A DNA stretch of 37,111 nucleotides, taken from contig JALONO010000007.1 in the NCBI GenBank assembly GCA_025454895.1, positions 1 to 37,111 on the forward strand, read 5' to 3'. The stretch is from Bernardetiaceae bacterium (GTDB lineage Bacteria; Bacteroidota; Bacteroidia; Cytophagales; Thermoflexibacteraceae). Positions 1 to 34,192 of the stretch are shown here, piece by piece (position 1 is the first letter of the stretch; each line of letters starts with the position of its first letter). Under the pieces are notes generated by a model. That model was not told the origin of the DNA, ran no database searches, and saw nothing but the letters and a program-made list of their open reading frames with translations. The position numbers and the translations under genes were made by a program.

Positions 1-1
1 C

Positions 2-229: not shown

Positions 230-252
230 CTTTCCGGCCGCCCCGTTTTTCG

Positions 253-1405: not shown

Positions 1406-1435
1406 TGCTTTTTGGCTGGCTAGGCGTTAAATTTG
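1402..1435 (+). promoter_or_regulatory. Probable promoter for the DUF4270 lipoprotein
   Basis: TAAATTTG at 1428-1435 matches TAnnTTTG exactly. The best TTG (1402-1404) overlaps the preceding stop codon and is 23 bases away, slightly long. Transcription should begin near 1442, which argues against a start codon at 1443 and for the ATG at 1497. Confidence 0.55.
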
Positions 1436-1496
1436 TAGCCAGATGCAACCATTTGGCACCCGCCAGCATCCAAAATTGCAGCAACACTACCTACCA

Positions 1497-3375: not shown

Positions 3376-3533
3376 ATAGGATTTTTACCCAATATTCCCC
3401 TTGGTGCAACGTTTTTGGATGGTGGATGGTAATGGTTTAGGGCAATTACCCGCCGTCGCCAAAACCTTTGGGCCAGTTTGGAGTTTAATTTGATAAAATA
3501 AATACGACTTTTCGACTTACCCACTTAGCCCCC

Positions 3534-5287: not shown

Positions 5288-5390
5288 AAATAATTTAAAA
5301 AGAGATCGTTAAGAAAAATAGCTGGATCATAAGGCCAAGGCCTATCCCAAGTTGACTATTCACTGGCCACCGCTGAGGGCCGGTGATGGG

Positions 5391-6022: not shown

Positions 6023-6095
6023 AAAGTTAATTAGCAATGGTGGATAGGTAAATTTAGCCGGTAGCCGCTAGCGGGCAACCCGCCGTAACTGCTTA

Positions 6096-6103
6096 CAAAA
6101 GTA
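6096..6103 (-). promoter_or_regulatory. Promoter -7 element for the hydroxylase gene
   Basis: On the minus strand this reads TACTTTTG, an exact TAnnTTTG match about 74 bases before the ATG at 6022. No TTG lies at the expected -33 distance. A GCGGG/CCCGC inverted repeat (near 6070-6083) falls in the predicted leader. Confidence 0.5.
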
Positions 6104-6173
6104 AATAGGGTGGAGAAATATTTAATCTTTGGCCCTTTGTGCCTGGGGATACGCCTCAAGCATGAACGGACAG

Positions 6174-6203
6174 AAAAAAAGCCACCCCGATGTCGGGATA
6201 GCC
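6174..6203 (-). terminator. Intrinsic terminator, minus strand
   Basis: Read on the minus strand, GGCTATCCCGA and TCGGGGTGGCT form an eleven-pair stem with three G-U pairs, followed by seven T (A tract at 6174-6180). It lies about 285 bases downstream of the DnaJ stop and insulates the hydroxylase promoter from upstream transcription. Confidence 0.75.
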
Positions 6204-6488
6204 TTTCGCTACAACAATTAAAACATATCAACCTATAAATTCACAATACTTTCAATCTTCTGTCGGAAGTTTCTGCCAGAAAAAGAGACCTGGCTAAAAC
6301 CATTGGGGAAATAATGTGGGGTTTTTCACCCGTATCGTATAATGGTTACCTATTTGGCAAAGCCTGTGCCATTGCTTTTATAAACTTGATTATCAAATAG
6401 TTATATAAAATAAATCCGGCTCGCCAACTGGCCTTGGTGTCCGTTTTGGCAGCCGGGCTGTCCGATTTCGCACACTTTTTGGGAACAA

Positions 6489-7430
6489 TTAGCCCTGGCG
6501 GAGCGCCGCCAATTGGGCAAAAAGTTCTTGCTCTTTGGCGGTGAGGTTTTTGGGGGCGGCGATCATGATTTTAACATACAAATCACCTTTTTGCTCCGGG
6601 TGGCCGTAATGAGGCATGCCCTTGCCTTTAAGGCGGAAAATTTTGCCGCTATCGGTACCCGCCGGGAGCGGGAAACTGATTTCTCCGCCCAGAAAACGGG
6701 TTGCTACCTTACCGCCGAGCACGGCGGTGTACAAATCCACCGGCAGGTCGTAGTACAGGTCGTGGCCGCGCCGCTCCACGCCGGCCATTTTGGCAATCTT
6801 GACCTTGACAAACAGGTCGCCGCGCTCGCCGCCGCCGGGGTGCTCGCCGCCGCGGCCCTTGAGCTTGAGCGACTGGCCGTCTTCTACCCCCGGCTTGATC
6901 TGCATCCGCAGCCGCTGGTTGAGCACGTTGAGGATGCGCACCGTGCCGTGATGGGCCTCTTCCAAGGTAATTTCCATCTCGGTTTCAAAGTCTTGCCCCC
7001 GGCTTAGCCGCTGGCCACTGTTGGGCCGTTCTTCGCCCCGGCCAAACCCGCCAAAAATGTTGCGGAAGAAGTCAGAAAAACCGCCGCCGCCCAGCGGGCC
7101 ATCAAAGTCAATATCAGGGCCGGGCTGGTATTGGCCCGTGGGCGGCCGGTAGCTGGGCCGCTTGCTTTTTACGTAGTCGGCCGGGTTGCCGCCAAACTTC
7201 TGGTATTGGGCCCAGTTGGCCCCCAGTTCGTCGTAGTACTTGCGCTTTTGCGGGTCGCTGAGCACGTCGTTCGCCTCGGTAATGTCCTTAAACTTGGCTT
7301 CGGCGGCTTTATCGCCAGGGTTTTTGTCGGGATGGTACTGTTTGGCCAACCTACGGTAGGCTTTTTTGATCTCCTCGGCCGAGGCGGTTTTAGGTACGCC
7401 TAATATCTTATAATAATCTTTGTAGTCCAT
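6489..7430 (-). CDS. DnaJ-family co-chaperone, CbpA type without zinc finger
   Basis: The 313-residue protein starts at the ATG at 7430 ([20 protein letters not shown]). The 30 in-frame residues upstream do not belong to the family. The J domain occupies 1-68, with the Hsp70-stimulating HPD at 33-35. A Gly/Phe-rich linker follows at about 112-133 ([19 protein letters not shown]). The two C-terminal beta-sandwich substrate-binding domains run from about 145 to the end, with [28 protein letters not shown]. The CxxCxGxG zinc motifs of DnaJ itself are absent, so this is a CbpA/DjlA-like class II protein that would deliver clients to DnaK. There is no grpE or dnaK next to it, and it appears to be monocistronic. 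Confidence 0.92.
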
Positions 7431-7607
7431 AAAAGTGAGGTACAAGTAGCAATTTGCCCGGCTACTGTAACGGGCCGTCGTGATTAAGAGGGTGGCAAAT
7501 GCGGGGCAGGTTTTCGCCAAACCCAGCCGGATGCCGGGGTTAGCCTTCCGGGCAAATGAAACCCATTTACCCTAAATACGCAAAGGCGGCCGGATAGTTC
7601 CGCCTGC

Positions 7608-8939
7608 CTACTTGCCGCCCCGGCGCGAGGAGCGCAGCCGGTGCACCGACGGGCGGTGCTCGCCAATGTTGACCCGGTTGAACAAAAACAGGCCCACGGC
7701 AAAAAACACCGTAAGCAACATAATGCCGTTGCGCATATCGCCGCTGAGCTGGCTCACCAAGCCGAACAGGGCCGTGCCCAGTACGATGGACAGTTTTTCC
7801 ATCACATCGTAAAAACTAAAATAGGAAGCGGTGTCCTTCGTGTCGCGCGGGATGAGCAGCGCGTAAGTGGACCGCGACAACGACTGGATACCGCCCATCA
7901 TGAAGCCCACCACGGCGGCCAAACCAAAAAACTGGTATTTGTCAGTAACCACATAGGCCAGCACACACACGCAGATCCAAGCCACCAGCACCGCCCTCAC
8001 CACAGCGTGGTTGCCCCGGGCCTGGGCCAATTTGGCCAAGGTCCAAGCCCCTGGTATGGCCACCAATTGGATGATCAGAATAGTGAGGACTAAGTACTCA
8101 TCCGTAAGCCCCAACTCGGCTTTGGCGTAAGTGGCCGCCAAAAACATAATGGTCTGTACGCCAATGCTGTAGCCCAAAAACGCTGCTAAGTAACGGCGCA
8201 CTTCGGGCAAATGGCCCAATTGTTTCCACACTTTGCGCAGTTCGGCGTAGCCCTTGGTGAGCCAGTGCCCGCGCTCCGGGTGCTGCCAAGGCTGGGTGGG
8301 CAGGTGCTTAAAGCTAAAGTGGGCAAACAAGACCCACCAAATACCTACCCCGGCAAAGGCGAAACGTTGCACCTGGTTGGCCGATGAAAAACCATACTGC
8401 ACGGGCTTGATCATCAGCGCGATCACGGCCACCAAAAACAACACGCTGCCCACGTACCCATAGGCGTACCCGCGCGCGCTCACGGCATTGAACTGATCCT
8501 TGTGGGCAATCACGGGCAAAAACGAATAGTAGAATACCAAGGCCCCCGTGTAGCCAAAGGTGGCCAGGCCAAACATGACCGTGCCGTACAAAATATTGGG
8601 GCCTTGAAAAAAGAACAACCCCGCGCAGGTGAGCGCGCCCAGCCAGGTAAAGCCCTGCATAAACAGTTTTCGTTTATCGCCATAGTCGGCAATGCCGGCC
8701 AGCAGGGGCGAAAGGGCCGCCGCCAGCAAAAACGCGCCCGACAGCGTGTAGGAGTAGAGGACGGTGTTGAGCACGGTCCAGCCGGGCAGCAGTTCCACCA
8801 GCCCGTTTTTGGCCGGGCCTTGGGTAACGTTGAGATAATAAGCGGGAAAAAGGGTGGACAGCACCACCAAATTATAAGCCGAGTTGGCCCAGTCGTACAA
8901 ACACCAGGCGTTAATCACCTTGGCATCGTTTTTTTGCAT
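7608..8939 (-). CDS. UMF1-family MFS transporter (Atg22-like)
   Basis: The 443-residue, roughly twelve-helix membrane protein opens with the diagnostic INAWCLYDWANSAYNLVV of the unknown major facilitator family 1, related to the yeast vacuolar effluxer Atg22. An internal GGIQSLSRSTYALLIP segment is also typical. Substrate is unknown; Atg22 exports amino acids from vacuoles, which does not transfer simply to bacteria. The ATG at 8939 (MQKNDAKVINAW) is preferred: the longer frame begins with a TTG at 8960 and repeats MQKN. It lies 45 bases after the response regulator with no terminator between, so they probably share a transcript. The C-terminal tail is short and basic (RLRSSRRGGK). Confidence 0.9.
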   Translation of the reverse strand: MQKNDAKVINAWCLYDWANSAYNLVVLSTLFPAYYLNVTQGPAKNGLVELLPGWTVLNTVLYSYTLSGAFLLAAALSPLLAGIADYGDKRKLFMQGFTWLGALTCAGLFFFQGPNILYGTVMFGLATFGYTGALVFYYSFLPVIAHKDQFNAVSARGYAYGYVGSVLFLVAVIALMIKPVQYGFSSANQVQRFAFAGVGIWWVLFAHFSFKHLPTQPWQHPERGHWLTKGYAELRKVWKQLGHLPEVRRYLAAFLGYSIGVQTIMFLAATYAKAELGLTDEYLVLTILIIQLVAIPGAWTLAKLAQARGNHAVVRAVLVAWICVCVLAYVVTDKYQFFGLAAVVGFMMGGIQSLSRSTYALLIPRDTKDTASYFSFYDVMEKLSIVLGTALFGLVSQLSGDMRNGIMLLTVFFAVGLFLFNRVNIGEHRPSVHRLRSSRRGGK

Positions 8940-8984
8940 CAGTCCCTCGTTTTTTTGCAAATATAGCCGGGTTTGCGGCCCGGT

Positions 8985-9677
8985 TTAGGTACCCAAGCTG
9001 AGCTTAAAACCCACCCGGTGGATGTTCTCCACGCCCAGGCGGGGGTCGTCTTTGAGGTATTTGCGCAGGCGGGAGATGAACACGTCCAGGCTGCGGCCGT
9101 TGAAATAATCATCGTCGCCCCAAATGGCCAGCAGGATTTCCTCGCGGCGCAGCACCTGGCCGGGCCGGTCGCAGAAGAGCCGCAACAGGTCCGCCTCGCG
9201 CTGGGTGAGCGGCTGCGGGCCGCCGGGGCCGCGCAAGGTAAGGTTGGGATAATCGAACTGGTACTGGCCCAGGGTATAGTGCCCGGCCCGCACCGCCGGG
9301 GGCTGGCCGGGGCGGCTGCGCTTGAGAAAAACTTCTATCTTGAGCACCAGCTCTTCAATGCTGAACGGCTTGGTCATGTAGTCGTCGGCCCCGAGGCGCA
9401 GGCCGCTGAGCCGGTCTTCTTTCTGGGCCTTGGAAGTGAGGAAGATAATCGGCACCTGTTCGTCGGCGGCCCGGATTTGGCGGGCCAGCGCAAAGCCGTC
9501 CAAACCGGGCAACATCACGTCCACTACGCAAAGGTCAAAGGTTTGCTGCTTAAACTGGGCCAGGGCTTTGGCCCCGTCGTCGCACAGGCACACGTGGTAG
9601 CCTTGCAGTTCCAGGTTGTCTTTGGTAACAAAGCCTAGGCTGGGGTCGTCTTCTACGTAAAGAATTTTAGCGGGCAT
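8985..9677 (-). CDS. OmpR/PhoB-family response regulator
   Basis: The 230 residues contain an intact receiver domain: the acidic pair D10-D11 in YVEDDPSLG, phospho-acceptor D53 in VVDVMLPG, the LTSKAQKEDRLSGLRLGADDYMTKPF switch region with the conserved Lys near 103, and a C-terminal winged helix (about 130-228, LTQREADLLRLFCDRPGQVLRREEILLAIWG then RSLDVFISRLRKYL). It resembles the RprY-type regulators common in Bacteroidota. No histidine kinase is adjacent, so it is an orphan here. It probably heads a two-gene unit with the UMF1 transporter. Confidence 0.92.
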   Translation of the reverse strand: MPAKILYVEDDPSLGFVTKDNLELQGYHVCLCDDGAKALAQFKQQTFDLCVVDVMLPGLDGFALARQIRAADEQVPIIFLTSKAQKEDRLSGLRLGADDYMTKPFSIEELVLKIEVFLKRSRPGQPPAVRAGHYTLGQYQFDYPNLTLRGPGGPQPLTQREADLLRLFCDRPGQVLRREEILLAIWGDDDYFNGRSLDVFISRLRKYLKDDPRLGVENIHRVGFKLSLGT

Positions 9678-9697
9678 GAGCGGGTGCGGAAAAAGTT

Positions 9698-9705
9698 CAA
9701 AAGTA
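9698..9705 (-). promoter_or_regulatory. Promoter -7 element for the response regulator
   Basis: The minus strand reads TACTTTTG, an exact TAnnTTTG, 20 bases before the ATG at 9677. A -33 TTG is not present at normal spacing. Transcription would begin about 13 bases before the start codon, giving a very short leader. Confidence 0.5.
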
Positions 9706-9930
9706 AAAAAATCGGGCGGGTTACCACCCCTTAGCCAGCAATTTGCCCTGGTTTTACGCTAAGCCCGCCGCTCGGCTACCGTAGCTCCGGTGTTATAGCG
9801 GATGCCCGTACCCAAGCCCAAAGCTCACGGCCAAAGCCTGCCTGCCTGCGGTACTACTGCATTGAATAGAAGAAAATCGGTTGGGCTGCCCCAGCTAATC
9901 TGAACCAAATACCGCCCGGCTTGGTTATAA

Positions 9931-9957
9931 GAAAAGCCACCGTAATGTGGTGGCTTT
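9931..9957 (-). terminator. Probable terminator after tRNA-Arg
   Basis: AAAGCCACC (9933-9941) and GGTGGCTTT (9949-9957) form a perfect nine-pair stem with a seven-base loop. On the minus strand the stem ends in a T-rich stretch (TTTTCTTATAA). It lies 76 bases beyond the 3' end of the tRNA. Confidence 0.65.
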
Positions 9958-10032
9958 AGGCTAATTTTGTTGAACAAGTGGGGCTGCGGCCCAATAATCC
10001 ATCTGCTTCTGCCCAACTGGCCCCACCAGCCC

Positions 10033-10107
10033 TGGTGACCCCGGCAGGAATCGAACCTGCATCAAAAGTTTAGGAAACTTCTATTCTATCCATTGAACTA
10101 CGGGATC
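10033..10107 (-). tRNA. tRNA-Arg (anticodon CCT), CCA encoded
   Basis: Read on the minus strand, acceptor arm GATCCCG pairs with CGGGGTC, the D stem is GTTC/GAAT, and the anticodon stem GAAGT/ACTTT encloses the loop TTCCTAA. That loop places CCT at positions 34-36, reading the arginine codon AGG. The T arm is GCAGG-TTCGATT-CCTGC. Discriminator A (10036) is followed by a genomically encoded CCA (10033-10035). It stands alone, with a -7 box directly upstream and a hairpin downstream. Confidence 0.97.
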
Positions 10108-10119
10108 GGAAATGGGCCA

Positions 10120-10127
10120 CAAAATTA
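10120..10127 (-). promoter_or_regulatory. Promoter -7 element for tRNA-Arg
   Basis: The minus strand reads TAATTTTG, an exact TAnnTTTG, 12 bases before the mature 5' end of the tRNA. This is where a stable-RNA promoter should be. No TTG occurs at the usual -33 distance. Confidence 0.55.
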
Positions 10128-10175
10128 CCCATAAAAAGCCTGAATATCACTGACCAATTCATCACAATTTTTTCA

Positions 10176-12467
10176 ATGACTAAACCTAAATCGCCGGGCC
10201 AAGAGGGCCCCAAGGCGAAAAAAAAGAACCCTACGCAGCCAACCGGCAACCAGCGCCAAGCCAAAAAGAAGCTACAAAACCAAAATCATAAAGCCCCGGC
10301 CGCCCCGCTTCAAAAAGCGGCCCAACTCATTTTGGCCTTGGTGAACGAGCACCCCAAACGCAAGTTTGCCCAGCGCGATTTTTACCGCCAGTTTGAGGCT
10401 AAGGACCTGGCCGCCCGCACCACCATCGACCAACTGCTGGCCGACCTCACCAGCCGGGGTTTACTCACCAAGGCGGGGCCGCAAGCTTACCAAGCCAACC
10501 GGGCCCCCCAAGGCGAAACCATCCTGGGCCGGGTGGACTACGTGAACCCCGACTACTGCTACGTGCTGCCCGAGCCAGTTCCGGGTGTACCGGTGGACGA
10601 ACTTTCGACCAAGCAAGACATCTGGGTGGCCCGCCGCCACGCTGGCTCGGCCCTGGACGGCGACTTGGTGCGCGTGGTGGTCCACCAATTTAAGCGCGAC
10701 ACCCGCCGCGAGGGCGAGATTGTAGAAGTAGTGCAGCGCGCCCGCACCGAGTTTGTGGGGGTGATTGAGCTAAACCCGCGCTATGCCTTTGTGGTGCCCG
10801 ACAAACGGAAAATGCACCACGACATTTTCATCCGGCTGCGCGACGTAAACGGGGCCCAGCAAGGCCAAAAAGTGGTAGCCGAAATTACCGAGTGGGACGA
10901 GCAGGGCAAAAACCCGGTAGGCCGCGTGAAAAAGGTGCTGGGCAAGGCGGGCGACCACGAAACCGAGATGCACTCGATCATGGCCGAATACGAACTGCCC
11001 TATGAGTTCCCTGACGCAGTGGTGCAAGAAGCCGAAGCCATTGGCGAAGCCATCCCGGCCAGCGAGGTGGCCAAACGCCGCGACTTTAGGGGCGTGCCCA
11101 CCTTCACCATCGACCCCGACAACGCCCAAGACTTTGATGATGCCCTGTCGCTGCGCAAGCTGGACAACGGGCTGTGGGAGGTGGGCGTACACATTGCCGA
11201 TGTTACCCATTACGTGCGCCCCGATACGCTGCTGGAACGCGAAGCCTACCACCGGGCCACTTCGGTGTACCTGGTGGACCGCTGCGTGCCCATGCTGCCC
11301 GAAAAACTGTCGAACCGGCTGTGCTCGCTGCGCCCGCACGAAGACAAGCTCACCTTTTCGGCCGTGTTTCAAATGACGGAACATGGCAAAATCGAACATG
11401 CTTGGTTTGGCCGCACCGTGATCCGCTCGGTGCGCCGCTTCACTTACGAGGAAGCCCAAACCGGGCTCGAATCTGGCCAGGGCGACTTTGCCGAAGAACT
11501 CAAATGGTTGAACCAAACGGCCAAAATTTTCCAACAAAAACGGGTCAAGGCCGGGGCTATCCTGTTCGAGACCACCGAAGTCAAATTCAAGCTGGATGAG
11601 AACAAAAAACCCATCGAATTGGTGCCTAAGGTGCGCCAAGATGCCCACAAGCTCATCGAGGAGTTTATGCTGCTGGCCAACAAGGGCGTAGCCGAGTTTG
11701 TGCATAACCTGCGCAAGGGCAAAACCACCAACACCATGGTGTACCGCACCCACGCCCACCCCGACCCGGAGCGGGTGCAGAACTTCGCCAATTTTGCCCG
11801 CCAGTTTGGCTACAACCTCAAGGTGGACGAAAAATCGGTGTCCAAATCGCTGAACCAACTGGCCCAGCAAACCGAGGGCAAGCCCGAACAAGGCGTGCTC
11901 CAACAACTTGCCATCCGGGCCATGGCTAAAGCCAAGTACACCACCGAGCCCCTGGGCCACTTCGGCTTGGCGTTCGATCATTATTCGCACTTTACCTCGC
12001 CCATCCGCCGCTACCCCGACATGCTGGCCCACCGGCTGCTCCAGCACTACCTGGACGGCGGCGCGCCCGTGGACCCGGTCATCTACGAGGAACGGTGCAA
12101 GCACTCGTCCGACATGGAAAAACGGGCCGCCGATGCCGAGCGGGCGTCCATCAAATATAAGCAAGTGGAATTGATGCAGGATTTGGCCAAGGCCGGTAAA
12201 CTGCGTAACCAGGCCCTGCCCGGGGTGATCACTGGCATCACGGAATGGGGCATGTACGTCGAGATCACCGCCACCCGTTGCGAGGGCATGGCCCGCCTCT
12301 CGGACCTGAAAATGGATTATTACGAGTTCGACGACAAAAAATACCAGGTAACCGGCCGCCGCTACGGGCGCACCTTCCGCCTGGGCGACCCCGTGCGCGT
12401 GTACGTAAAAGCCACCAACCTCGAGAAACGCACCATCGACCTGTTGCTGGACGAGGAGGAGGCGTAG
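10176..12467 (+). CDS. rnr: Ribonuclease R
   Basis: This is a 3'-to-5' processive exoribonuclease for structured RNA and mRNA/rRNA quality control. The 763 residues comprise a lysine-rich start (1-40), a winged-helix region (about 45-105), two cold-shock domains (about 112-255), the RNB catalytic domain (about 300-630) and a C-terminal S1 domain (about 675-760). The RNB metal-binding motif DPDNAQDFDDA is intact, with D313, D319, D321 and D322. HYSHFTSPIRRYPDMLAHRLL is the conserved distal RNB segment. It is transcribed divergently from tRNA-Arg with only 68 bases between them. The ATG at 10176 gives the whole N-terminal domain. No basic tail follows the S1 domain, unlike E. coli RNase R. Confidence 0.96.
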   Translation: MTKPKSPGQEGPKAKKKNPTQPTGNQRQAKKKLQNQNHKAPAAPLQKAAQLILALVNEHPKRKFAQRDFYRQFEAKDLAARTTIDQLLADLTSRGLLTKAGPQAYQANRAPQGETILGRVDYVNPDYCYVLPEPVPGVPVDELSTKQDIWVARRHAGSALDGDLVRVVVHQFKRDTRREGEIVEVVQRARTEFVGVIELNPRYAFVVPDKRKMHHDIFIRLRDVNGAQQGQKVVAEITEWDEQGKNPVGRVKKVLGKAGDHETEMHSIMAEYELPYEFPDAVVQEAEAIGEAIPASEVAKRRDFRGVPTFTIDPDNAQDFDDALSLRKLDNGLWEVGVHIADVTHYVRPDTLLEREAYHRATSVYLVDRCVPMLPEKLSNRLCSLRPHEDKLTFSAVFQMTEHGKIEHAWFGRTVIRSVRRFTYEEAQTGLESGQGDFAEELKWLNQTAKIFQQKRVKAGAILFETTEVKFKLDENKKPIELVPKVRQDAHKLIEEFMLLANKGVAEFVHNLRKGKTTNTMVYRTHAHPDPERVQNFANFARQFGYNLKVDEKSVSKSLNQLAQQTEGKPEQGVLQQLAIRAMAKAKYTTEPLGHFGLAFDHYSHFTSPIRRYPDMLAHRLLQHYLDGGAPVDPVIYEERCKHSSDMEKRAADAERASIKYKQVELMQDLAKAGKLRNQALPGVITGITEWGMYVEITATRCEGMARLSDLKMDYYEFDDKKYQVTGRRYGRTFRLGDPVRVYVKATNLEKRTIDLLLDEEEA

Positions 12468-12806
12468 GCCAAAACTCGAGACAGTTGCCCTGGTTTATTG
12501 CTGGGGCATACTTTGGCAATCTCATGCCAAAATCAAAAAAGCCGATTGCTTACCTCATTTCTTGCAAATAATTGATAATAAACGATAAAAAAATTATACC
12601 TTTTGCAAGATAAATTCTTAATCGGGCAAAAGCCCGGAGTTTCGTTTGAAATCCGCCCTTTTTGGCCCCACCCTGTCCAGCAGCACTGGCTCGCCCCAAA
12701 AGCTCATTCGCTTTTGGTCGTCCGTCGGGGAGGGGACGTAATTACGACCTGAATACGGGTAATGTGCAAGAGGTCTATTGAGTAATTTAGTTTAACCCCA
12801 TTCAGC
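12468..12806. other. Intergenic region with a hairpin and a dispersed structured repeat
   Basis: No gene is seen. After an AT-rich stretch (12560-12620) comes CGGGC-AAAA-GCCCG at 12623-12636, a possible weak rnr terminator with a poor T tail. A 45-base structured repeat at 12690-12734 recurs at 35991-36035. The rest is unexplained. Confidence 0.55.
12690..12734 (+). repeat. Dispersed 45-bp structured repeat, copy 1
   Basis: The element begins CTCGCCCCAAAAGC, has a perfect eight-pair hairpin (CCAAAAGC 12696-12703, loop TCATTC, GCTTTTGG 12710-12717), and continues TCGTCCGTCGGGGAGGG. Copy 2 at 35991-36035 is 43/45 identical in the same orientation. Confidence 0.8.
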
Positions 12807-13130
12807 ATGGCCACCCTTCAAATCAACGCCACCCTGCCCGACTACCAAGCCTACCTCAAGGCCTTGTGCGAAGAGCGCGGCTGGACCGGCAACACCGACC
12901 TGGAACTTTACCTCCTTTTCGCCGAGGAAGTGGGCGAACTGGCCAAGGCCATCCGCCGCCGTCGTAAGCTGTACATCGAGCCTAGCAAGGCCCACAAGCC
13001 CGATAACTTGGAAGAAGAATTTGCCGACGTGTTCGGCTACTTGCTGGACTTGGCCAACCACTTCAACATCGACCTGGAGCAGGCCTTCCGCAATAAGGAA
13101 GCCATTAATGCTCAGCGGGTTTGGCACTAA
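12807..13130 (+). CDS. MazG-like nucleotide pyrophosphohydrolase
   Basis: The 107-residue all-alpha protein is the length of a single MazG domain. It carries the metal-binding EExxE motif at 40-44 (AEEVGELAKAI) and ExxD at 71-74 (EEEFADVFGYLLDLAN), which coordinate magnesium in the family. Members hydrolyse non-canonical or damaged (d)NTPs to monophosphate and pyrophosphate. The preferred nucleotide cannot be read from sequence. The sequence ends LEQAFRNKEAINAQRVWH, similar to single-domain MazG proteins. The gene has its own 70-base spacer to the glycosidase gene, and no shared function with its neighbours is evident. Confidence 0.9.
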   Translation: MATLQINATLPDYQAYLKALCEERGWTGNTDLELYLLFAEEVGELAKAIRRRRKLYIEPSKAHKPDNLEEEFADVFGYLLDLANHFNIDLEQAFRNKEAINAQRVWH

Positions 13131-13201
13131 GCCTTTATTTAGCCCCATGCCTTTCGATTTTCGTGGCAAATGCGCATTTTGCGGGCCTCTAGCTTACGAA
13201 A

Positions 13202-14611
13202 ATGAAAAAAATCTTCCCCGCTTTGTTACTTGGCTTGGTCACCCTGGGCAGCCAGGCCCAAACCCTACCGCCTGCCAACCTGCCCAACCCCGTGCCCAAC
13301 GGCCGGTTACAGGTTTCGCCCAACGGCCGGTTTTTGGTCCACGAAAACGGCAAACCTTTTTTCTGGCTGGGCGACACCGCCTGGGAACTGTTCCACCGGC
13401 TCAACCGCCAGGAAACCGCCCGCTACCTGCGCAACCGGGCCGATAAGGGCTTCACCGTGATCCAAGCCGTGGCCCTGGCCGAGGTGGACGGCCTCAACGA
13501 CCCCAACGCCTACGGCGAAACCCCGCTCACCAATAACGACCCCACCCAACCCCGCGAGGCCTACTTCCAGCACGTGGACTGGGTCATCGACCGGGCCGCC
13601 GAGTTTGGCCTCTACATCGGGTTTTTGCCCACCTGGGGCGACAAGCTCCACAAAGACAGTTGGGGCCAAGGCCCAGAGGTGTTTAACGCCAGCAACGCCC
13701 GCGTGTACGGCCGCTGGCTGGGCAACCGTTACAAAGACCGCAAAAACCTGATTTGGATTTTGGGCGGCGACCGCAACCCCCGCCACGCCGCCGACGTGGA
13801 GGTGTGGCGCAGTATGGCGGCGGGCATCATCGACGGCGTGGGCGGAGCCGACAAAGCCCTATTGACCTTCCACCCCCAGCCCAACAGCCTGGAGGATGGC
13901 GGCTCGTCTAAGTGGTTTCACAACGATAGCTGGTTGGATTTCAATATGTTCCAAACGGGCCATTGCCGTGAGAACAACGTGTGGGACCGTTTGCAAGTGG
14001 CCTATAACCGCCAGCCTACCAAGCCCGTGCTCGACGGCGAGACCATTTACGAAGACCACCCGGTGTGCTTCAACGCCCGCGACCTGGGCACCTCCAGCGC
14101 GTTTGACGTGCGCAAACACGCTTACTTGGCGGTTTTTGCGGGCGGGTTTGGCGAAACCTACGGCTGCCACCCGGTATGGCAAATGTTCGCGCCGGGCCGG
14201 GCACCCATCAACGGCCCGCATTTCCCGTGGTACGAGGCCATCGACCTGCCGGGGGCGGGCCAGATGCAATACCTGCGCCGCCTCATGGAAGCCCGGCCCC
14301 TGCTGGAGCGCGTGCCCGACCAGACCCTAATCGACAACGCCCGCGATGCGCACGACCGCATCCAAGCCACCCGGGGCAATGACTACGCCTTTGTGTACAG
14401 CACCCAGGGGCAGCCGTTTACGGTTAAAATGGGCAAAATCAGCGGCCAGCAACTGGTGGCCCGCTGGTACAATCCCCGCACCGGCGAGAGCAAAGACCCG
14501 CAAACCTTCCCCAACACGGGTGAGCAACGGTTTACCCCGCCCGGTAGTGGTTACGGGCAAGACTGGGTGCTCATCCTGGACGACGCCGCCAAGAATTATC
14601 CCAAACCCTAG
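13202..14611 (+). CDS. Secreted glycoside hydrolase, DUF4038/GH140-like
   Basis: A signal peptide (MKKIFPALLLGLVTLGSQAQ, cleavage near 20) leads a TIM-barrel DUF4038 domain (about 35-375) and a C-terminal putative collagen-binding beta domain (about 380-465). Family landmarks are FFWLGDTAWELFHRL (53-67), WILGGDRNP with Asp190, and DGETIYEDHP with Glu280 and Glu284. The Asp and one of the Glu are the likely acid/base and nucleophile. Characterised GH140 members are apiosidases acting on the pectin rhamnogalacturonan-II, but DUF4038 proteins are broader and no other pectin gene is nearby. The product should be periplasmic or exported. No T9SS tail and no lipobox are present. Confidence 0.88.
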   Translation: MKKIFPALLLGLVTLGSQAQTLPPANLPNPVPNGRLQVSPNGRFLVHENGKPFFWLGDTAWELFHRLNRQETARYLRNRADKGFTVIQAVALAEVDGLNDPNAYGETPLTNNDPTQPREAYFQHVDWVIDRAAEFGLYIGFLPTWGDKLHKDSWGQGPEVFNASNARVYGRWLGNRYKDRKNLIWILGGDRNPRHAADVEVWRSMAAGIIDGVGGADKALLTFHPQPNSLEDGGSSKWFHNDSWLDFNMFQTGHCRENNVWDRLQVAYNRQPTKPVLDGETIYEDHPVCFNARDLGTSSAFDVRKHAYLAVFAGGFGETYGCHPVWQMFAPGRAPINGPHFPWYEAIDLPGAGQMQYLRRLMEARPLLERVPDQTLIDNARDAHDRIQATRGNDYAFVYSTQGQPFTVKMGKISGQQLVARWYNPRTGESKDPQTFPNTGEQRFTPPGSGYGQDWVLILDDAAKNYPKP

Positions 14612-20971: not shown

Positions 20972-21442
20972 CTAGCGTTTAGCGGCAAACCGCCCGTCGG
21001 TGATGTTCACGCGGGCGTTGGTGATCAAGTCCACGGCATCGAACCGGAACGTGCCGGAGAGCACGCCGTTAGCCGCCAATCCTGTAACCGTAACGCTGCC
21101 CGCAATGGACCCGAAAGTGCGAAAGGCCGGATCGTTGTACGCGGCTTGCCCGGCATCGAGGGGATAAGTGCCCGGCGTAGCGTCCGGCAGTTCGATGATG
21201 ATGGCCGACTGATCAGTGCCCGTGCCGATCACGGTGGCCAAGCGGCCCAGTCCCGGCGCGCCGATGCTTTGGGTATAGCTGGCGGTGCCGCACCAGGCGG
21301 TACCATTGACCCTCGCCCCCATTTCGCAGTCGGGGGCTGCAGCCTCGTCGGTAGAGGAGCCGCCGCAGGCTGCCAGGCCCAGTAGGGCGGCGGAGACGGC
21401 CCAACGCCGGAGGGTAGCCAATTGGCTAAAACGATGGTACAT
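20972..21442 (-). CDS. Small lipoprotein, DUF6252-like
   Basis: The 156 residues begin at the ATG at 21442 (MYHRFSQLATLRRW); two extra codons from a TTG at 21448 are unlikely. A hydrophobic stretch ends in LLGLAAC, so Cys26 is the lipidation site, followed by GGSSTDEAAA. The body has an opening VNGTAWCGTASY strand, a middle Gly/Thr-rich beta region and a terminal ARVNITDGRFAAKR. This pattern resembles the small Bacteroidota lipoproteins grouped as DUF6252, with no known function. An AT-rich dispersed repeat lies directly upstream. Confidence 0.7.
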   Translation of the reverse strand: MYHRFSQLATLRRWAVSAALLGLAACGGSSTDEAAAPDCEMGARVNGTAWCGTASYTQSIGAPGLGRLATVIGTGTDQSAIIIELPDATPGTYPLDAGQAAYNDPAFRTFGSIAGSVTVTGLAANGVLSGTFRFDAVDLITNARVNITDGRFAAKR

Positions 21443-21474
21443 GATCAATCTTAAAATGATTTATTGGCTGCATG

Positions 21475-29434: not shown

Positions 29435-29471
29435 AAAACGCCCCGTCCATTAGCAAAGAATGGACGGGGCG
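29435..29471 (-). terminator. Terminator after lipoprotein A
   Basis: CGCCCCGTCCATT (29439-29451) and AATGGACGGGGCG (29459-29471) form a perfect thirteen-pair stem. On the minus strand it is followed by TTTTAG. The same stem, with a two-base different loop, follows lipoprotein B at 31411-31443. It could also stop plus-strand transcription from the HyuAB gene. Confidence 0.85.
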
Positions 29472-29490: not shown

Positions 29491-30000
29491 TTATTCTTTC
29501 GCCAAAGTAACTTCCGCCACGGGGTCGTTTAAAGCGGGCACGCCGGGGATTTGGTAACTAACGTTGGTTACAAAAACCAACTCCCGGCGACCTAAACTGT
29601 TAATCCGGGTTCGGCCCCAAAAGGCGATTTTGGGGTCAGGGGCATTGAACACGTTGATATAAAATTCATCCAATTGCTCGAGAGGCTGGCGGTCAGCCGT
29701 GTAGGTGAAGTTTTGCCGCACTCCTTCTATTTCGTAGACCCCCGGACAACTACCGTTGCCGCTCTCCTTCAACTTGCAATGGTCAAACTGGAAATAACCT
29801 TGTGGGTTAGGTAGGTCAACTATTGGGTTACCAGAACTATTTCTTGGCTTAAATTGAACCTTGGTAACCCGCCACCGCCCGCCCAGGTCATTGACTAAGT
29901 TTTGGTCGTTGGGGCGGCCAAAGTCCACCATCGAACAACCAAACGAGGCGATAGTGAGGGAAAGAAGTCCGGCTAATCTGAAGATGCGCTTTTTTGCCAT
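29491..30000 (-). CDS. Lipoprotein A, lipocalin-like, paralogue of 31463-31975
   Basis: The 169 residues carry a lipoprotein signal ending in ASFGC (Cys22), then SMVDFGRPNDQNLVNDLGGRWRVTKVQF. The G-x-W motif near the start of the body is reminiscent of lipocalin-like proteins. KLKESGNGSCPGVYEIEG and the C-terminal PALNDPVAEVTLAKE are shared with the paralogue. No function is recognised. It ends the minus-strand cluster, 83 bases after beta-barrel A, and is followed by a strong terminator. A weak promoter candidate precedes it (TTG 20 bases before TATTTTCA, 30036-30066), with two mismatches in the -7 box. Confidence 0.7.
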   Translation of the reverse strand: MAKKRIFRLAGLLSLTIASFGCSMVDFGRPNDQNLVNDLGGRWRVTKVQFKPRNSSGNPIVDLPNPQGYFQFDHCKLKESGNGSCPGVYEIEGVRQNFTYTADRQPLEQLDEFYINVFNAPDPKIAFWGRTRINSLGRRELVFVTNVSYQIPGVPALNDPVAEVTLAKE

Positions 30001-30083
30001 AAATTTGTTTTATACCAAGATACTCTACATAACATTGAAAATAAGAAAATTAGTCAAATAAGTCAACGCACCATGCCTGGTGC

Positions 30084-30704
30084 TCAAAGCCGCACCCCCA
30101 CCAGAACCCCGCCCTGGACAATTTGGCTATTGACGGTATCGATTTGGTAAGCCCCCCAGCCGCCTATCAGCCACCGCTGGCCCAGGTAATACTGGTACAT
30201 CACCTGCCCCACCCCGCCGAGTGCCAGGGTGTACTGAGGCGTGGTAGCTTCGGTTAAGAAGAGTTGGAGCGGAAAATCGGGGTTGCGCGGGGGGAAAACC
30301 GTAATCGGCTGTACCGACGATGACTGGTAGCGCAGCAACGGCCCGGCCAGCAAGCTCAACTGATGCTTGGCCCGGCGCAATAGGCTATACCCCACCTGCG
30401 GGGCTAATTGTACCCCCAGCATATCTTGCCGCACTTCTACCTCAAGCAAATCACCCTGTGGCCCAACGAAAGAGGGCATTGGCACCGCGCGGTCGTGCAT
30501 GGTTACGCTCAGGCCCAGGCAAGCTGACCACCGGAGCGAGAAATGGTAGCCATATTGCCCGGTGAGACTGGGCCCCCAATTGTCCAGAGATTGGTGCCGT
30601 CCATAGCCCACCAAAACTTGGAAGGTATGCCGGGACGGGACGGTTTGACCCAAACTAACCGCCACGTTAGCCAGCCAAAAACCGATGAGCAAGAAGCTGC
30701 GCAT
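30084..30704 (-). CDS. Outer-membrane beta-barrel-like protein A
   Basis: The 206 residues have a signal peptide (MRSFLLIGFWLANVAVSLGQ, cleavage near 19). A body of alternating aromatic/hydrophobic beta strands follows, including GQYGYHFSLRWSACLGLSV, VGYSLLRRAKHQLSLLAGPLLRYQSSS and GGVGQVMYQYYLGQRWLIGGWGAYQ. It ends in a strand, GVLVGVRL. This fits a small OmpW- or OmpX-like outer-membrane barrel. No specific family is recognised. It lies 33 bases after a frameshifted paralogue and 83 bases before lipoprotein A, so barrel and lipoprotein may work as a pair. Confidence 0.7.
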   Translation of the reverse strand: MRSFLLIGFWLANVAVSLGQTVPSRHTFQVLVGYGRHQSLDNWGPSLTGQYGYHFSLRWSACLGLSVTMHDRAVPMPSFVGPQGDLLEVEVRQDMLGVQLAPQVGYSLLRRAKHQLSLLAGPLLRYQSSSVQPITVFPPRNPDFPLQLFLTEATTPQYTLALGGVGQVMYQYYLGQRWLIGGWGAYQIDTVNSQIVQGGVLVGVRL

Positions 30705-30737
30705 TTGATAAAAATCTTAAAAATTGAGAAAAACGGA

Positions 30738-31363
30738 TCAAAGGCTTAAACCTACCGATAGGTTGGGAATGTGCCAGATCAAATCACCGAGCGAGTCGAG
30801 CTGCCCGGCTAAGCCCAGGCCCGCGTACAACCGGCCCGTTACTTGGCGACGGTAATAAAGTTGCACTAGCCCGGCCGCCACCAGCACCCGCTGCGAGGGG
30901 GCATAAGTTACATAATAGGCCGGGACATCTAACCCGGTACCAATACCAGGGAAGAACGTGCTAAAAGAGGTGTACTGAGACGAAGACTCATAGCGTAGCA
31001 CTGGCCCGGCCAACAAAGCAAAGTCATGCTTTAGGTTACGAGAAATGCTAAAGCCGACTTTACCTACCCATTGAAACCCCACTACATTATACGCAAGGCA
31101 TAGTTTGGCAGGTTGCTGCTAGGCTCGGTCGGAAAAGATATCAGTTCGGATGAATGAAATGTAGCCCCCAGCCCAGTGGCCAACGACCAGCGATGGCTTA
31201 AGAAATGCTGGTACTCGTAATGAATGCCCCCTCCCAGGATATCGCCACTAGTGAGGAATACTGAACCTAAGTCCATCCGTACCGACTGGGGGGCCAGGCC
31301 GGGTGATTGGGCCAGGGCCGAACTTGCCCACCCCAGGCTGAAAATCAAAGGCAGGAGTCTCAT
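30738..31363 (-). pseudogene. Beta-barrel protein B, interrupted by a one-base frameshift
   Basis: The first frame (31363-31082) has a signal peptide and ends NYALRIM-stop. The second (31082-30738) continues VGFQWVGKVGFSISRNLKHDFALLAGPVLRYESSS to a terminal NLSVGLSL strand. Joined, they align along their length with barrel A, for example SISRNLKHDFALLAGPVLRYESSS against LLRRAKHQLSLLAGPLLRYQSSS. One missing base near 31083-31090 accounts for the break. The stop and a possible GTG start overlap as TAGTG, so reinitiation making a second polypeptide cannot be excluded. There is no homopolymer at the break, which makes a simple read error less likely than for the hydroxylase. Confidence 0.75.
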
Positions 31364-31406
31364 GAGCGCGCGATGGCTGATTGTGGTGGATAAGTTGCTA
31401 GTTACT

Positions 31407-31443
31407 AAAACGCCCCGTCCATTGGTAAAGAATGGACGGGGCG
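31407..31443 (-). terminator. Terminator after lipoprotein B, duplicate of the one at 29435
   Basis: The same thirteen-pair stem CGCCCCGTCCATT/AATGGACGGGGCG (31411-31423 and 31431-31443) has loop GGTAAAG instead of AGCAAAG and is followed on the minus strand by TTTTAG. It should end transcription before the barrel genes. Confidence 0.85.
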
Positions 31444-31462
31444 GGTAAGATCAAAAAACCGA

Positions 31463-31975
31463 TTATTCTTTCGCCAAAGTAACTTCCGCCACTGGGTCGT
31501 TTATACTGGGCACACCAGGGATTTGATAACGGACATCTGAGACAAAAGTCAGATTTCTGCGATCTAACACCGTGATCGTACTTTTCCCCCAAAAGTTGAT
31601 CATAGGTTCTGGCGGATCGGGGAAGTTGAGATAAAATATATCTGGGCCTTGACCTTGCGGCTGGCGATTAGCCGTAAACACAAAGCCAACTCGTTCGCCA
31701 TTGATTTCATAAACCCCTGGGCAACTGCCATTACCACTCTCTTTCAGCTTGCAAACTTCAAACTGAAAATAACCTTGCGGGTTGGGCAATACCACGCTCT
31801 CATTGTTGGCCCTAAAGCGACGCATCAACTTAACCTCAACTATCCGCCACCGGCCGCCCAGGTCGTTGACCAAAGTTTGATCGGTGGGGCGGCCCAGGTC
31901 AATCACTGAGCAGCTTATTAAGCCAACAACTACTGTTAACAACTTTACTGGCCTTAAAATCGATTTGATAATCAT
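31463..31975 (-). CDS. Lipoprotein B, lipocalin-like, paralogue of 29491-30000
   Basis: The 170 residues have a lipoprotein signal ending in GLISC (Cys22), then SVIDLGRPTDQTLVNDLGGRWRIVEVKL. Shared blocks with lipoprotein A include LPNPQGYFQF, KLKESGNGSCPGVYEI and SINDPVAEVTLAKE. In between, the two differ at many positions. No function is recognised. It lies 109 bases after the large lipoprotein gene and is followed by a terminator identical in its stem to that of lipoprotein A. Confidence 0.7.
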   Translation of the reverse strand: MIIKSILRPVKLLTVVVGLISCSVIDLGRPTDQTLVNDLGGRWRIVEVKLMRRFRANNESVVLPNPQGYFQFEVCKLKESGNGSCPGVYEINGERVGFVFTANRQPQGQGPDIFYLNFPDPPEPMINFWGKSTITVLDRRNLTFVSDVRYQIPGVPSINDPVAEVTLAKE

Positions 31976-32084
31976 GGTTAAAAGATTGTTTTGAGCTAAA
32001 ACAAGTTAATTTAATCAAAGAGATGTTCATTAAAGGAGCGTTTAAGAGCACCCAGAAACAAATCATCCGAATTGGCTAGCACTG

Positions 32085-33311
32085 TTATTGGCCGGTTTTG
32101 AAAACAAATCCGCTACCAATCGGCAACTCGATCGTGCAGTCCCTAAAATCAATCCAACGCTGACCAATAATATCATCTGTATCACGAGTACCAAACTTGA
32201 GGCCAATGGTTGACTCGATTGATGGGCTAGTGCTGAAATTCCTTCCGACGGAAACCGTAACTTCTTGCAAACCCAAATGAGGCCAATCTTCCTCTGTCCA
32301 ATGGTAAGTTACAATATTACCTATCGCGCCAGTACTCCAAGGGAAGAGATTGTAGCCGACCGCCCTAAACTCCTGCTGTACTAGACGACGGATTTCTTCG
32401 TAGGGGTGTTCACTGGCAAAGCGAGCATCAGGGCCAGACGCATTAGGTACCGCAATTCTTAGCCTGACCTCCACGTCCCCCGCTAACCAATCTTCGTACA
32501 TGTTTATATCAGTGAACTTGAAGCCACCCAATATTTCGCTTCGCATGTCAACGCGGCAAGCCTCCAAACGGGCATTGGAAGGGTTAGCTTGTACCGGCCC
32601 TAAACCCCGCCAATCAGAACTAAGGTAGTAATCGGAGCCACGCAGACCTTCACGTTCGTTCAAGCCCACTACTACTACCGGAACTCCCGGTTCACGTTTG
32701 GCATCCAGCCAAACCACTTCACCATCACCGTTATAAGCCTTAACTCTAGTGGCGGTGGCTTCGTCATAGTCCACCGGGAATATCGCCACCAGGGGGACAA
32801 ATTTATCGGTATCCCAATCCTCGATGTGAACAGGTACAGAGAAGTTAAGCAGGGGATGGACACTCGCCTCTAAATCCTGCGAATTACCAACAAAGGTATT
32901 CAAGCCGTTGGGCAGGCGATCGAGGCTTGATGACAGAACACTTTTAAACAATTGACCATCAACTGATTGATCTTTAAGCAAGGAGTACAAGGCATCAAAT
33001 TGACCATTTCGGCGTTTACTGGCTTCAGCTTTAATCAATTCCCTGAAGCCTTTGCTTTGTAAAGCTTTAGCTGCCCCCTGCGCAATAACTTCAAACTGGG
33101 CGTTGAGCTTTTTCGCATCCTCCCGCGTAAGGGCAGGGCCTATGTCTGCAGCTAATGGATTAAGCATTCGGTCAAGCTTTGTTGGCGGCAAATTAGCAAC
33201 ACGCGGTTCGCTAGCTGGCGATATTTCCTCCTCGTTCCCACAACCCGAAAAAACCATCAACCCCAAAGCCAATACCCCTGCTTGGTTGAATAACTTCAAT
33301 GTTTTGTTCAT
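32085..33311 (-). CDS. 408-residue lipoprotein of unknown function
   Basis: A lipoprotein signal ends in VFSGC (Cys24), followed by GNEEEISPASEP. An alpha-helical, charged segment (about 55-150, LTREDAKKLNAQFEVIAQGAAKALQSKGF) precedes a beta-rich C-terminal half with FVPLVAIFPVDYDEATATRVKAYNGDGEVVWLDAKREPGVPVVVVGLNERE. That central part faintly recalls DUF3103 proteins, but from memory only. It would be anchored in the envelope. Codon and base composition are more AT-rich than the housekeeping genes, consistent with an accessory gene. Two exact 19-bp repeats lie between its start and the preceding regulator gene, suggesting direct control by that regulator. Confidence 0.65.
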   Translation of the reverse strand: MNKTLKLFNQAGVLALGLMVFSGCGNEEEISPASEPRVANLPPTKLDRMLNPLAADIGPALTREDAKKLNAQFEVIAQGAAKALQSKGFRELIKAEASKRRNGQFDALYSLLKDQSVDGQLFKSVLSSSLDRLPNGLNTFVGNSQDLEASVHPLLNFSVPVHIEDWDTDKFVPLVAIFPVDYDEATATRVKAYNGDGEVVWLDAKREPGVPVVVVGLNEREGLRGSDYYLSSDWRGLGPVQANPSNARLEACRVDMRSEILGGFKFTDINMYEDWLAGDVEVRLRIAVPNASGPDARFASEHPYEEIRRLVQQEFRAVGYNLFPWSTGAIGNIVTYHWTEEDWPHLGLQEVTVSVGRNFSTSPSIESTIGLKFGTRDTDDIIGQRWIDFRDCTIELPIGSGFVFKTGQ

Positions 33312-33373
33312 CTTTGCGTTAGTTTGTAAATGAATGATATTGCAAAGAAAAACCCTTGAAAGTAGCGGGTTTC

Positions 33374-33392
33374 TAGTAAAAGTGTACTATTT
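33374..33392. promoter_or_regulatory. Operator-like repeat, copy 1
   Basis: TAGTAAAAGTGTACTATTT occurs here and again at 33408-33426 with no mismatch. Its core, TAGTA-N6-TACTA, is an inverted repeat of the type bound by dimeric HTH regulators. It lies 63 bases upstream of the 408-residue lipoprotein start. Confidence 0.6.
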
Positions 33393-33407
33393 AAACGGTG
33401 GGTAGCC

Positions 33408-33426
33408 TAGTAAAAGTGTACTATTT
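33408..33426. promoter_or_regulatory. Operator-like repeat, copy 2
   Basis: This is an exact second copy of the 19-bp sequence, with a start-to-start distance of 34 bases (a little over three helical turns). It abuts the stop codon of the LuxR-type regulator gene. Confidence 0.6.
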
Positions 33427-34035
33427 TTATTTGCCAAGCATTTTGGCCACTTCGTAAAGCTCTTCCACGCCCTTCAACCCCCATTTTTCCACGATATTGG
33501 CTTTGTGATTTTTTATCGTATGGTAACTACGGCAAAGGACTTCGGCAATGGCCGAAGCCCGCAAGCCCTTGGCGATTAAGTCCAACACTTGCCGCTCGGT
33601 GCGGGTTAGCAACCGCAGGTCGCAGCCCTTAGGTAGGCTTGGTGGTGGCACCAGGTTGGGCGGGGGCAGTAGTCCGGCTTCTAAACTTAGGCATTGCCAC
33701 ACTTGGTGGTCGGTAGGCAGTTCGGGTAAAAACCCGTCAATCCGTAGTAGGTGCTGCTCGCCCAGGCTGGTTTGCAACGCGGGCGGGGCCATAACCACCA
33801 GGCGGCAAGCTGGGAACCTTTGCCGGCACAACCGCAACTTATCCAGGTAGCCGTTTTCCAGGCTGGGCATGCCTAAAAAAATCAGTTGGGGGTTACTAGC
33901 TGCGCCTAAGCTCCCTAACGTTTCAGGGCTGGGGTTTACCAGCACCAGCCAGTTGCTTTGCGCCAAAACCTGGGTAACTGGGCCTAAACCAGAGGCCCCT
34001 ACCCCGCACAAATAAGCTACGGAGGGGTTGTTCAT
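33427..34035 (-). CDS. LuxR-type transcriptional regulator with a degenerate receiver-like domain
   Basis: The 202 residues end in a clear GerE/LuxR helix-turn-helix (143-190: LTRTERQVLDLIAKGLRASAIAEVLC then SYHTIKNHKANIVEKWGLKG). The N-terminal 115 residues look like a receiver fold (VLVNPS, PQLIFLGMPSLENG, RLVVMAPP). However, the phospho-acceptor Asp position is Gly55 and the N-terminal acidic pair is missing, so it is unlikely to be phosphorylated in the normal way. A proline-rich linker (124-136) joins the parts. It is transcribed from a consensus promoter through a leader containing a C12 tract, and the lipoprotein gene 115 bases downstream is the likely target or operon partner. Confidence 0.8.
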   Translation of the reverse strand: MNNPSVAYLCGVGASGLGPVTQVLAQSNWLVLVNPSPETLGSLGAASNPQLIFLGMPSLENGYLDKLRLCRQRFPACRLVVMAPPALQTSLGEQHLLRIDGFLPELPTDHQVWQCLSLEAGLLPPPNLVPPPSLPKGCDLRLLTRTERQVLDLIAKGLRASAIAEVLCRSYHTIKNHKANIVEKWGLKGVEELYEVAKMLGK

Positions 34036-34099
34036 AGCGGCAAGGGGATCACCGCCCCGGTTAAAATGGGGAAAACTTTGATCGCCAACCGAGAGTCGC

Positions 34100-34111
34100 G
34101 GGGGGGGGGGG
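34100..34111 (-). repeat. Poly-C/poly-G tract (12 bases) in the regulator leader
   Basis: Twelve consecutive G on the plus strand (C on the transcribed sense strand) lie between the predicted transcription start and the regulator ATG, 64 bases before the ATG. Tracts of this length are prone to slipped-strand length change. Confidence 0.8.
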
Positions 34112-34162
34112 TAACGGGTTGAGAAGCATTGAGTTACAAGTATAGTTGAAGAACGAACAATC

Positions 34163-34192
34163 CAAAGTTACTCGATTTTATTAATTTAACAA
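34163..34192 (-). promoter_or_regulatory. Promoter of the LuxR-type regulator
   Basis: On the minus strand TTG (CAA at 34190-34192) is followed after 19 bases by TAACTTTG (34170-34163), an exact TAnnTTTG. Transcription should start near 34156, giving a leader of about 120 bases. Confidence 0.75.

Follow-up and report, generated by a model that had tools for sequence, protein, structure and literature searches.

What controls a cluster of envelope genes that carries its own regulator, and do such genes act as one system? These questions are raised by a locus in a Bernardetiaceae bacterium (Bacteroidota, Cytophagales; GenBank assembly GCA_025454895.1, contig JALONO010000007.1, positions 1 to 37,111). 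The window, meaning the whole 37,111-nt stretch that was analyzed, corresponds to a single contig of a draft genome that totals 4.58 Mb over 389 contigs. Between positions 29,491 and 34,192 the minus strand encodes a LuxR/NarL-type regulator, a 408-residue lipoprotein related to Pfam family DUF3103, two lipocalin-like lipoproteins, and two small beta-barrels. Open reading frames (ORFs), Pfam matches, and reading of the sequence place these genes where the initial annotation had put them, but one of the two barrel genes is frameshifted. That annotation also overlooked the repeat tracts of the locus and its relatives, which are the most informative feature. We propose, with a probability of about 0.55, that the locus is a phase-variable surface-lipoprotein cassette built around the DUF3103-family lipoprotein and here switched through the regulator.

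Repeats at the starts of DUF3103-family genes

Relatives of the lipoprotein are present in 42 of 390 genomes of the order, and their genes are enriched in simple sequence repeats (SSRs) at the 5' end. In a scan for repeats within 150 nt of gene 5' ends, in which counts depend on the thresholds used, SSRs were found in 13 of 55 DUF3103-family genes versus 3 of 266 other genes in the same loci (odds ratio 27, p = 1e-8). The enrichment is also evident relative to secreted-type genes (4 of 194; p = 1e-6). Repeats are of several kinds (C9-13, TC, AC, CTCTA, AATTC, AAATTTCC, and ACAAAAAC) with units of 1, 2, 5, or 8 nt, none of which is a multiple of 3. Because units differ among lineages, selection appears to have acted repeatedly on a repeat at this position. 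The locations of C tracts follow the same pattern: in 540 kb around DUF3103-family genes there are six C/G runs of at least 9, and five are within about 115 nt of a DUF3103-family 5' end, all with C on the coding strand.

The position of repeats relative to start codons is consistent with switching by frame. In 12 of the 13 repeat-bearing genes, an ATG located 7-31 nt upstream runs into the repeat, and the repeat sits within the reading frame that encodes both signal peptide and protein. As assembled, the upstream ATG is out of frame in 11 of these 12 genes and in frame in one. Repeats whose units are not multiples of 3 thus lie between start codon and mature protein, and tract length and frame both differ among orthologues, here compared between species. 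One set of orthologues has C7 in frame (L120) and C9 (L056) or C13 (L124) out of frame. In another, (AC)13 is out of frame (L121) and (AC)6 is in frame but reaches a later stop (L128). Hymenobacter orthologues have C11 or G7, both out of frame. As read from these genomes, the repeat arrangement of the relatives conforms to the classical design of slipped-strand phase-variable genes, and DUF3103-family genes look phase-variable. In such genes, slippage of the polymerase would alter the repeat between the start codon and signal peptide; the lipoprotein would be made when the frame is joined and not made when it is broken, at random in each cell.

Two loci show further variations in structure. 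Locus L049 (positions 1-14252, genome G006) has a long array of near-identical small helix-turn-helix (HTH) genes (~80 aa), lipoproteins, and barrels; its DUF3103-family gene has AAATTTCC octamers at the start and the locus looks like several tandem cassettes. In L116 (8289-10292), a DUF3103-family cassette locus, a gene for a 667-aa lipoprotein has the tandem octanucleotide AAAACACA between the ATG and signal peptide, in frame.

A C tract ahead of the regulator

The lipoprotein gene of the window starts at an in-frame ATG, encodes an intact signal peptide, and has no repeat of its own; a tract is instead found ahead of the regulator gene. The upstream part of the locus is organized as follows.

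34163..34192, minus strand: promoter of the regulator, TTG-N19-TAACTTTG, with TAACTTTG at 34170-34163 and TTG at 34192-34190 (sequence reading)
34100..34111, minus strand: C12 tract in the regulator leader, candidate slipped-strand switch (homopolymer scan)
33427..34035, minus strand: LuxR/NarL-type regulator, 202 aa, with a degenerate receiver-like N-terminus (Pfam, alignment)

The C12 tract, between the promoter and regulator, is the longest homopolymer of the window and its sole C/G run of at least 8. An ATG at 34129 is 18 nt upstream of the tract and one base off the frame of the regulator, and the regulator frame stays open through the tract, for an open frame of 246 aa. These coordinates allow either of two starts: the regulator would begin at 34129 in cells whose tract has a different length, or at 34035 with the tract in its leader. 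Because a slippery tract lies in the leader behind an out-of-frame ATG, the regulator is a candidate for the switch. A role of C12 in switching is favored because the same genome has C tracts likewise placed in other genes: two more DUF3103-family genes (L051 and L052; contigs C23 and C216) have C10 and C9, each with an ATG 13 nt upstream, and the tracts of two secreted-protein genes and of another LuxR-type regulator, described below, count toward the same view. We infer that the C12 tract of the regulator is probably the switch and acts in trans on the lipoprotein. Cells of a clone would differ in the length of C12 and hence in the amount of regulator.

Other C tracts of this genome are also near gene starts or contig ends. 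Two secreted-protein genes have C12 and C13 tracts located 11-22 nt past an out-of-frame ATG (L236, G000:C222:444-455; L237, G000:C261:3302-3314), suggesting that this genome has a broader repertoire of switchable surface genes. Another response regulator of the LuxR type, in which the receiver motif is intact (VLVADDHP), has C9 close to its start (L244, G000:C255:14994-15002). Contigs G000:C123 (1-9; L247) and G000:C151 (6-15; L246) terminate in C tracts, as is expected if the assembler broke at repeats of variable length.

Regulator and candidate operators

Features of the regulator are consistent with a DNA-binding protein that operates without phosphotransfer. Residues 142-197 match the GerE/LuxR HTH (Pfam, E = 6.8e-11), which was also the sole match when cluster proteins were searched with defense-system models. 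The N-terminal half can be aligned with receivers of typical response regulators, and in this alignment the acidic pair and conserved Lys are missing and Gly is present at the position of the phosphoacceptor Asp. The receiver is therefore, as first annotated, non-phosphorylatable, and control of the regulator by phosphorylation is unlikely. The regulator shares the GerE HTH with NarL/FixJ-type response regulators but lacks their phosphorylation residues. It resembles LuxR/NarL-type regulators with atypical receivers, which likewise have a receiver-like N-terminal half, and differs from these in that every phosphorylation residue is missing and in having a C12 tract in its leader. No close orthologue of the regulator was found. 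Elsewhere, the same genome encodes a LuxR-type paralogue whose receiver is just as degenerate (L057:402-1076, G000:C83).

The initial annotation also reported a consensus promoter for the regulator and operator-like repeats ahead of the lipoprotein gene. The former is a perfect Bacteroidota-type promoter, and the latter are two exact, palindromic 20-bp copies.

33373..33426, minus strand: two 20-bp repeats, candidate operators, with palindromes at 33407-33423 and 33373-33389 (repeat search)
33343..33350, minus strand: TTTCTTTG, candidate -7 element of the lipoprotein gene (consensus match only)

The repeats directly follow the regulator stop codon. Each has an imperfect palindrome, TAGTA-N6-TACTA, and within the exact 20-bp repeats TAGTACACTTTTACTAG occurs at 33407-33423 and 33373-33389, 34 nt apart from start to start. 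The chance expectation for such repeats in the window is 0.01, and a search of the whole genome with up to 2 mismatches found no further copy. The candidate -7 element is not accompanied by a TTG at the -33 position, so the palindromes could plausibly serve to activate the lipoprotein gene. When made, the regulator would occupy both palindromes past its own stop codon and activate a lipoprotein promoter that lacks a -33 element. A similar arrangement is present in two species of one other genus (L053 and L109), where a LuxR-type HTH gene is followed by a DUF3103-family gene and a tandem 22-bp repeat containing CTCA-N5-TGAG sits between the two, after the HTH gene.

The lipoprotein and its predicted C2-like domain

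32085..33311, minus strand: DUF3103-like lipoprotein, 408 aa, with residues 253-408 predicted to be C2-like (Pfam, profile, model)

The 408-residue lipoprotein was found as described, with a lipobox at C24. Its match to DUF3103 (PF11301; profile positions 77-138) scores 22.7 bits (E = 5.6e-5), under the 25-bit gathering cut-off. Of the 36 members of the lipoprotein alignment, 26 match the family, the best at 4e-81. We use the label DUF3103-like because the window protein is under the cut-off though its relatives match strongly. A second lipoprotein copy in this genome is apparently divided between two contig ends (C23 and C161).

DUF3103 is a family without a described function, and a C2-like fold of the C-terminal half is newly proposed here. 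AlphaFold2 modeled the protein poorly from 7 sequences (pLDDT 50) and better from 36 (pLDDT 77, pTM 0.76). In a VIA-align search with residues 253-408 of the model, the top 50 entries are essentially all C2-domain proteins (Z 5.4-6.2), the best with Z of 6.2 and an rmsd of 3.3 over 102 aligned residues. Foldseek alone found no significant match to the lipoprotein model in the Protein Data Bank (PDB). Because Z is below 8 and Foldseek gave no significant match, the assignment to C2 remains a prediction.

Conserved residues agree with it. The motifs E-x-W-x-x-G-x-x-E, W-x-E-x-D, and DD-x-I-G had been noted ahead of the structure search. Acidic residues in the alignment are conserved at E273 (33/36), E281 (36/36), E340 (31/35), D342 (35/35), D379 (32/35), and D380 (25/35), and D279 is not conserved. 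By alignment to the synaptotagmin loops, E273, E340, D342, and D380 presumably match four of the five C2 ligands of Ca2+. The lipoprotein has a predicted beta-sandwich like that of C2 domains (synaptotagmin, PLC-delta, Munc13) and has DIIG at the third loop; it differs from them by an insert of ~30 residues in the third loop and by the lack of a sequence-level match. We predict that the C-terminal half resembles Ca2+/lipid-binding C2 domains. The lipoprotein would be anchored in the outer membrane, where its C2-like domain may bind lipid or another ligand, perhaps with Ca2+.

Recurrent but interchangeable partners

Downstream of the lipoprotein gene are the lipocalin-like lipoprotein and beta-barrel genes.

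31463..31975, minus strand: lipocalin-like lipoprotein 1, 170 aa (ORF, profile)
31411..31443, minus strand: intrinsic terminator 3' of lipocalin-like gene 1 (fold analysis)
30738..31363, minus strand: beta-barrel gene 1, frameshift-split into 31082-31363 and 30738-31082 (ORFs, DUF3575 match, homology)
30084..30704, minus strand: beta-barrel gene 2, 206 aa, intact (ORF, homology)
29491..30000, minus strand: lipocalin-like lipoprotein 2, 169 aa (ORF, profile)
29439..29471, minus strand: intrinsic terminator 3' of lipocalin-like gene 2, near-identical in sequence to that of gene 1 (repeat comparison)

Both pairs are paralogous, as had been suggested from the sequence. The lipocalin-like lipoproteins are 60% identical and their genes have a common duplicated tail with the same strong terminator (fold z = -7.5). 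Since each has its own terminator, a single transcript is unlikely. In the barrel pair, a single frameshift splits one gene into two ORFs in different frames, each of them homologous to the intact barrel. The lipoprotein-export signal showed no average difference between the lipoprotein and the lipocalins.

Genes of this kind recur next to DUF3103-family genes in other genomes. A gene for a small secreted protein is next, on the same strand and within 125 bp, for 27 of 52 DUF3103-family genes versus 16 of 225 controls in the same loci, counts in which related genomes are not independent. The genes at this position encode barrels of several families or lipocalin-like lipoproteins. In G161, the DUF3103-family gene is followed at 48 bp by a homologue of the window barrels (2e-18). 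Downstream of the second lipoprotein copy (C23, C161) is a barrel gene with a homologue (4e-28) that likewise comes after the DUF3103-family gene of G006. No barrel adjoins the DUF3103 genes of two genomes from a different family of the same class.

Homologues of the lipocalin-like proteins are harder to recognize. Searches against Pfam, curated NCBIfam, and PDB sequences found no match, and single-protein and two-sequence searches of up to 390 genomes found almost nothing; a conserved lipocalin orthologue was rejected on this basis. A profile of lipocalin-like lipoproteins encoded 3' of DUF3103-family genes in six other genomes matches the window pair at 2e-9 and 9e-9, against a background of DUF3103-family loci only. 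G41 and W43, the G-x-W motif of lipocalins, are invariant in eight homologues. An obligate pair of barrel and lipoprotein was also rejected, as the search with the barrel gave mainly stand-alone homologues from one genus.

Partners are therefore recurrent but, judging from these neighborhoods, interchangeable. A comparison across Cytophagales did not find homologues scattered and never adjacent; adjacency is frequent. The initial claim that the cluster forms one system is supported as far as adjacency in relatives goes, and is not supported in that partners are interchangeable and also occur scattered. The lipocalin-like lipoproteins and small barrels of the window would represent interchangeable envelope partners that are duplicated and partly decayed.

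The composition of the locus raises the possibility that the cluster is a chance accumulation of fast-evolving, AT-richer accessory envelope genes, with a regulator that controls only itself or nothing. GC content at third codon positions (GC3) is low, 0.47-0.70 in cluster genes (0.47 in the 408-aa lipoprotein) versus 0.63-0.81 in 20 other genes of the window, and a codon composition unlike that of the rest of the window fits an accessory origin. The accessory character noted at the outset is also evident in the duplicated lipocalin tail and terminator and in the frameshifted barrel. Separate terminators and the scatter of barrels and lipocalins elsewhere are likewise expected of a chance cluster. 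But this explanation does not predict the excess of adjacent downstream genes, nor tandem palindromes that are unique to the interval between regulator and lipoprotein. Furthermore, a LuxR-type HTH gene is directly upstream of the DUF3103-family gene in two other genera, represented by Runella aurantiaca (L046) and the two species with the 22-bp repeats. We consider a chance cluster unlikely.

Assessment of the switch

Several observations weigh against a phase-variable cassette switched through the regulator. By the thresholds used, 42 of 55 DUF3103-family genes have no repeat, and the lipoprotein gene of the window has none either. The ATG at 34035, downstream of C12, can serve as the start of the regulator, in which case the tract is confined to the leader and may do nothing. 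The genome has 19 C tracts of at least 9, several are away from gene starts, and their total is not above a simple chance expectation. No polymorphism in tract length was seen within a strain, with one genome per species, and assemblies can miscount homopolymers. Against a single fixed system, the types of upstream regulators differ among loci (LuxR HTH, small HTH, Crp-like, and LytTR). Nine of 10 barrel homologues in other genomes stand alone, and the one significant match of an unbiased search with the lipocalins has no DUF3103 gene next to it. The C2 matches have Z below 8, and sequence searches (Pfam, family profile, and PDB) find no C2. If the proposed cassette is real, individual cells would differ in a surface component, and selection for this would most likely come from phages, predators, or competitors that exploit the component.

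Relation to known systems

Phase-variable contingency loci with SSRs are known in Neisseria, Haemophilus, Campylobacter, and Helicobacter (PMC11868660, PMC8355987), and a general mechanism based on homopolymeric 5'-end tracts has also been proposed (PMC2831843). The DUF3103 family is like the pathogen loci in having short repeats with units that are not multiples of 3 near the starts of surface genes and orthologues that are in or out of frame. It differs in that the bacteria are environmental Bacteroidota, where the switch is a candidate, and in that the family has no described function. In the window, the tract is ahead of a dedicated transcription regulator and not of a surface gene. Most descriptions of repeat-driven phase variation concern pathogens with small genomes, and the presence of long simple repeats is correlated with host dependence (PMC11475388, PMC4060949). 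A repeat ahead of a cassette's own regulator is an arrangement mostly known from host-dependent pathogens, not from environmental bacteria of this group. A literature search that covered few subscription journals found no mention of DUF3103 and none of repeat phase variation in Cytophagales.

The recurrence of repeats with differing units on one uncharacterized family of surface lipoproteins in environmental Cytophagales suggests that the protein is under strong fluctuating selection, such as that exerted by phages or rivals. A broader possibility is a family-wide contingency system in Cytophagales, in which C2-like surface lipoproteins are switched by slipped-strand repeats of several independent kinds. 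The locus studied here would then be a variant in which the switch moved to a dedicated LuxR-type regulator that controls the cassette in trans, and the lipoprotein may serve as a surface weapon whose immunity or receptor partner is interchangeable. We put this broader view forward tentatively, at somewhat less than even odds. DUF3103 would gain its first functional handle: a predicted C2-like domain in a surface protein that is expressed stochastically and paired with an interchangeable envelope partner.

The idea of a weapon has parallels in Bacteroidales. BSAP genes adjoin a resistant version of their own outer-membrane target (PMC4999547), the gene for BcpT is directly followed by one for a small immunity lipoprotein (PMC9308784), and a MACPF domain is present in all BSAPs (PMC12853789). 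As in these systems (PMC4999547, PMC12853789, PMC9308784), a lipoprotein gene in the window is beside barrel or small-lipoprotein genes, but its product has no MACPF domain and no detected sequence similarity to them, and no toxicity is known. By analogy, the cassette might encode a toxin and its immunity: the DUF3103-type lipoprotein would be antibacterial and surface-displayed or released, the downstream lipocalin or barrel would be an immunity protein or resistant receptor, and orphan copies would be orphan immunity genes. That the next gene is small, secreted, often non-homologous between genera, and present as orphans elsewhere fits such a role. So does the lipocalin-like partner in L094, which matches NCBIfam BSAP-5i over nearly its full length, albeit weakly (19 bits versus a cut-off of 150). 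The remaining matches to BSAP-5i mostly cover signal peptides or N-termini, Pfam, NCBIfam, and defense-system models find neither MACPF nor a known toxin domain, and the C-terminus of the lipoprotein is conserved rather than polymorphic. Toxin and immunity are thus a doubtful explanation for the cassette.

A role in nutrient capture is suggested by genes found after the cassette in some relatives. A TonB-dependent receptor and a DUF4249 lipoprotein follow the lipoprotein-lipocalin pair in Runella (L046) and in L094, and a receptor follows the DUF3103-family gene in L137; DUF4249 proteins have been proposed to be partners of TonB-dependent transporters (PMC11003636). In this view, the products of the cassette (lipoprotein, lipocalin-like lipoprotein, and barrel) could be accessories that aid a TonB-dependent transporter in substrate binding and import. 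No receptor is near the genes of the window or of most relatives, however, and random ON/OFF switching is unusual for uptake, though not unknown. Nutrient capture is therefore quite improbable.

Other features of the window

A search of Rfam gave no match. Apart from the cluster, positions 20972-21448 encode a small lipoprotein with a weak match to NCBIfam Riean_0653 (35.5 bits, under the cut-off).

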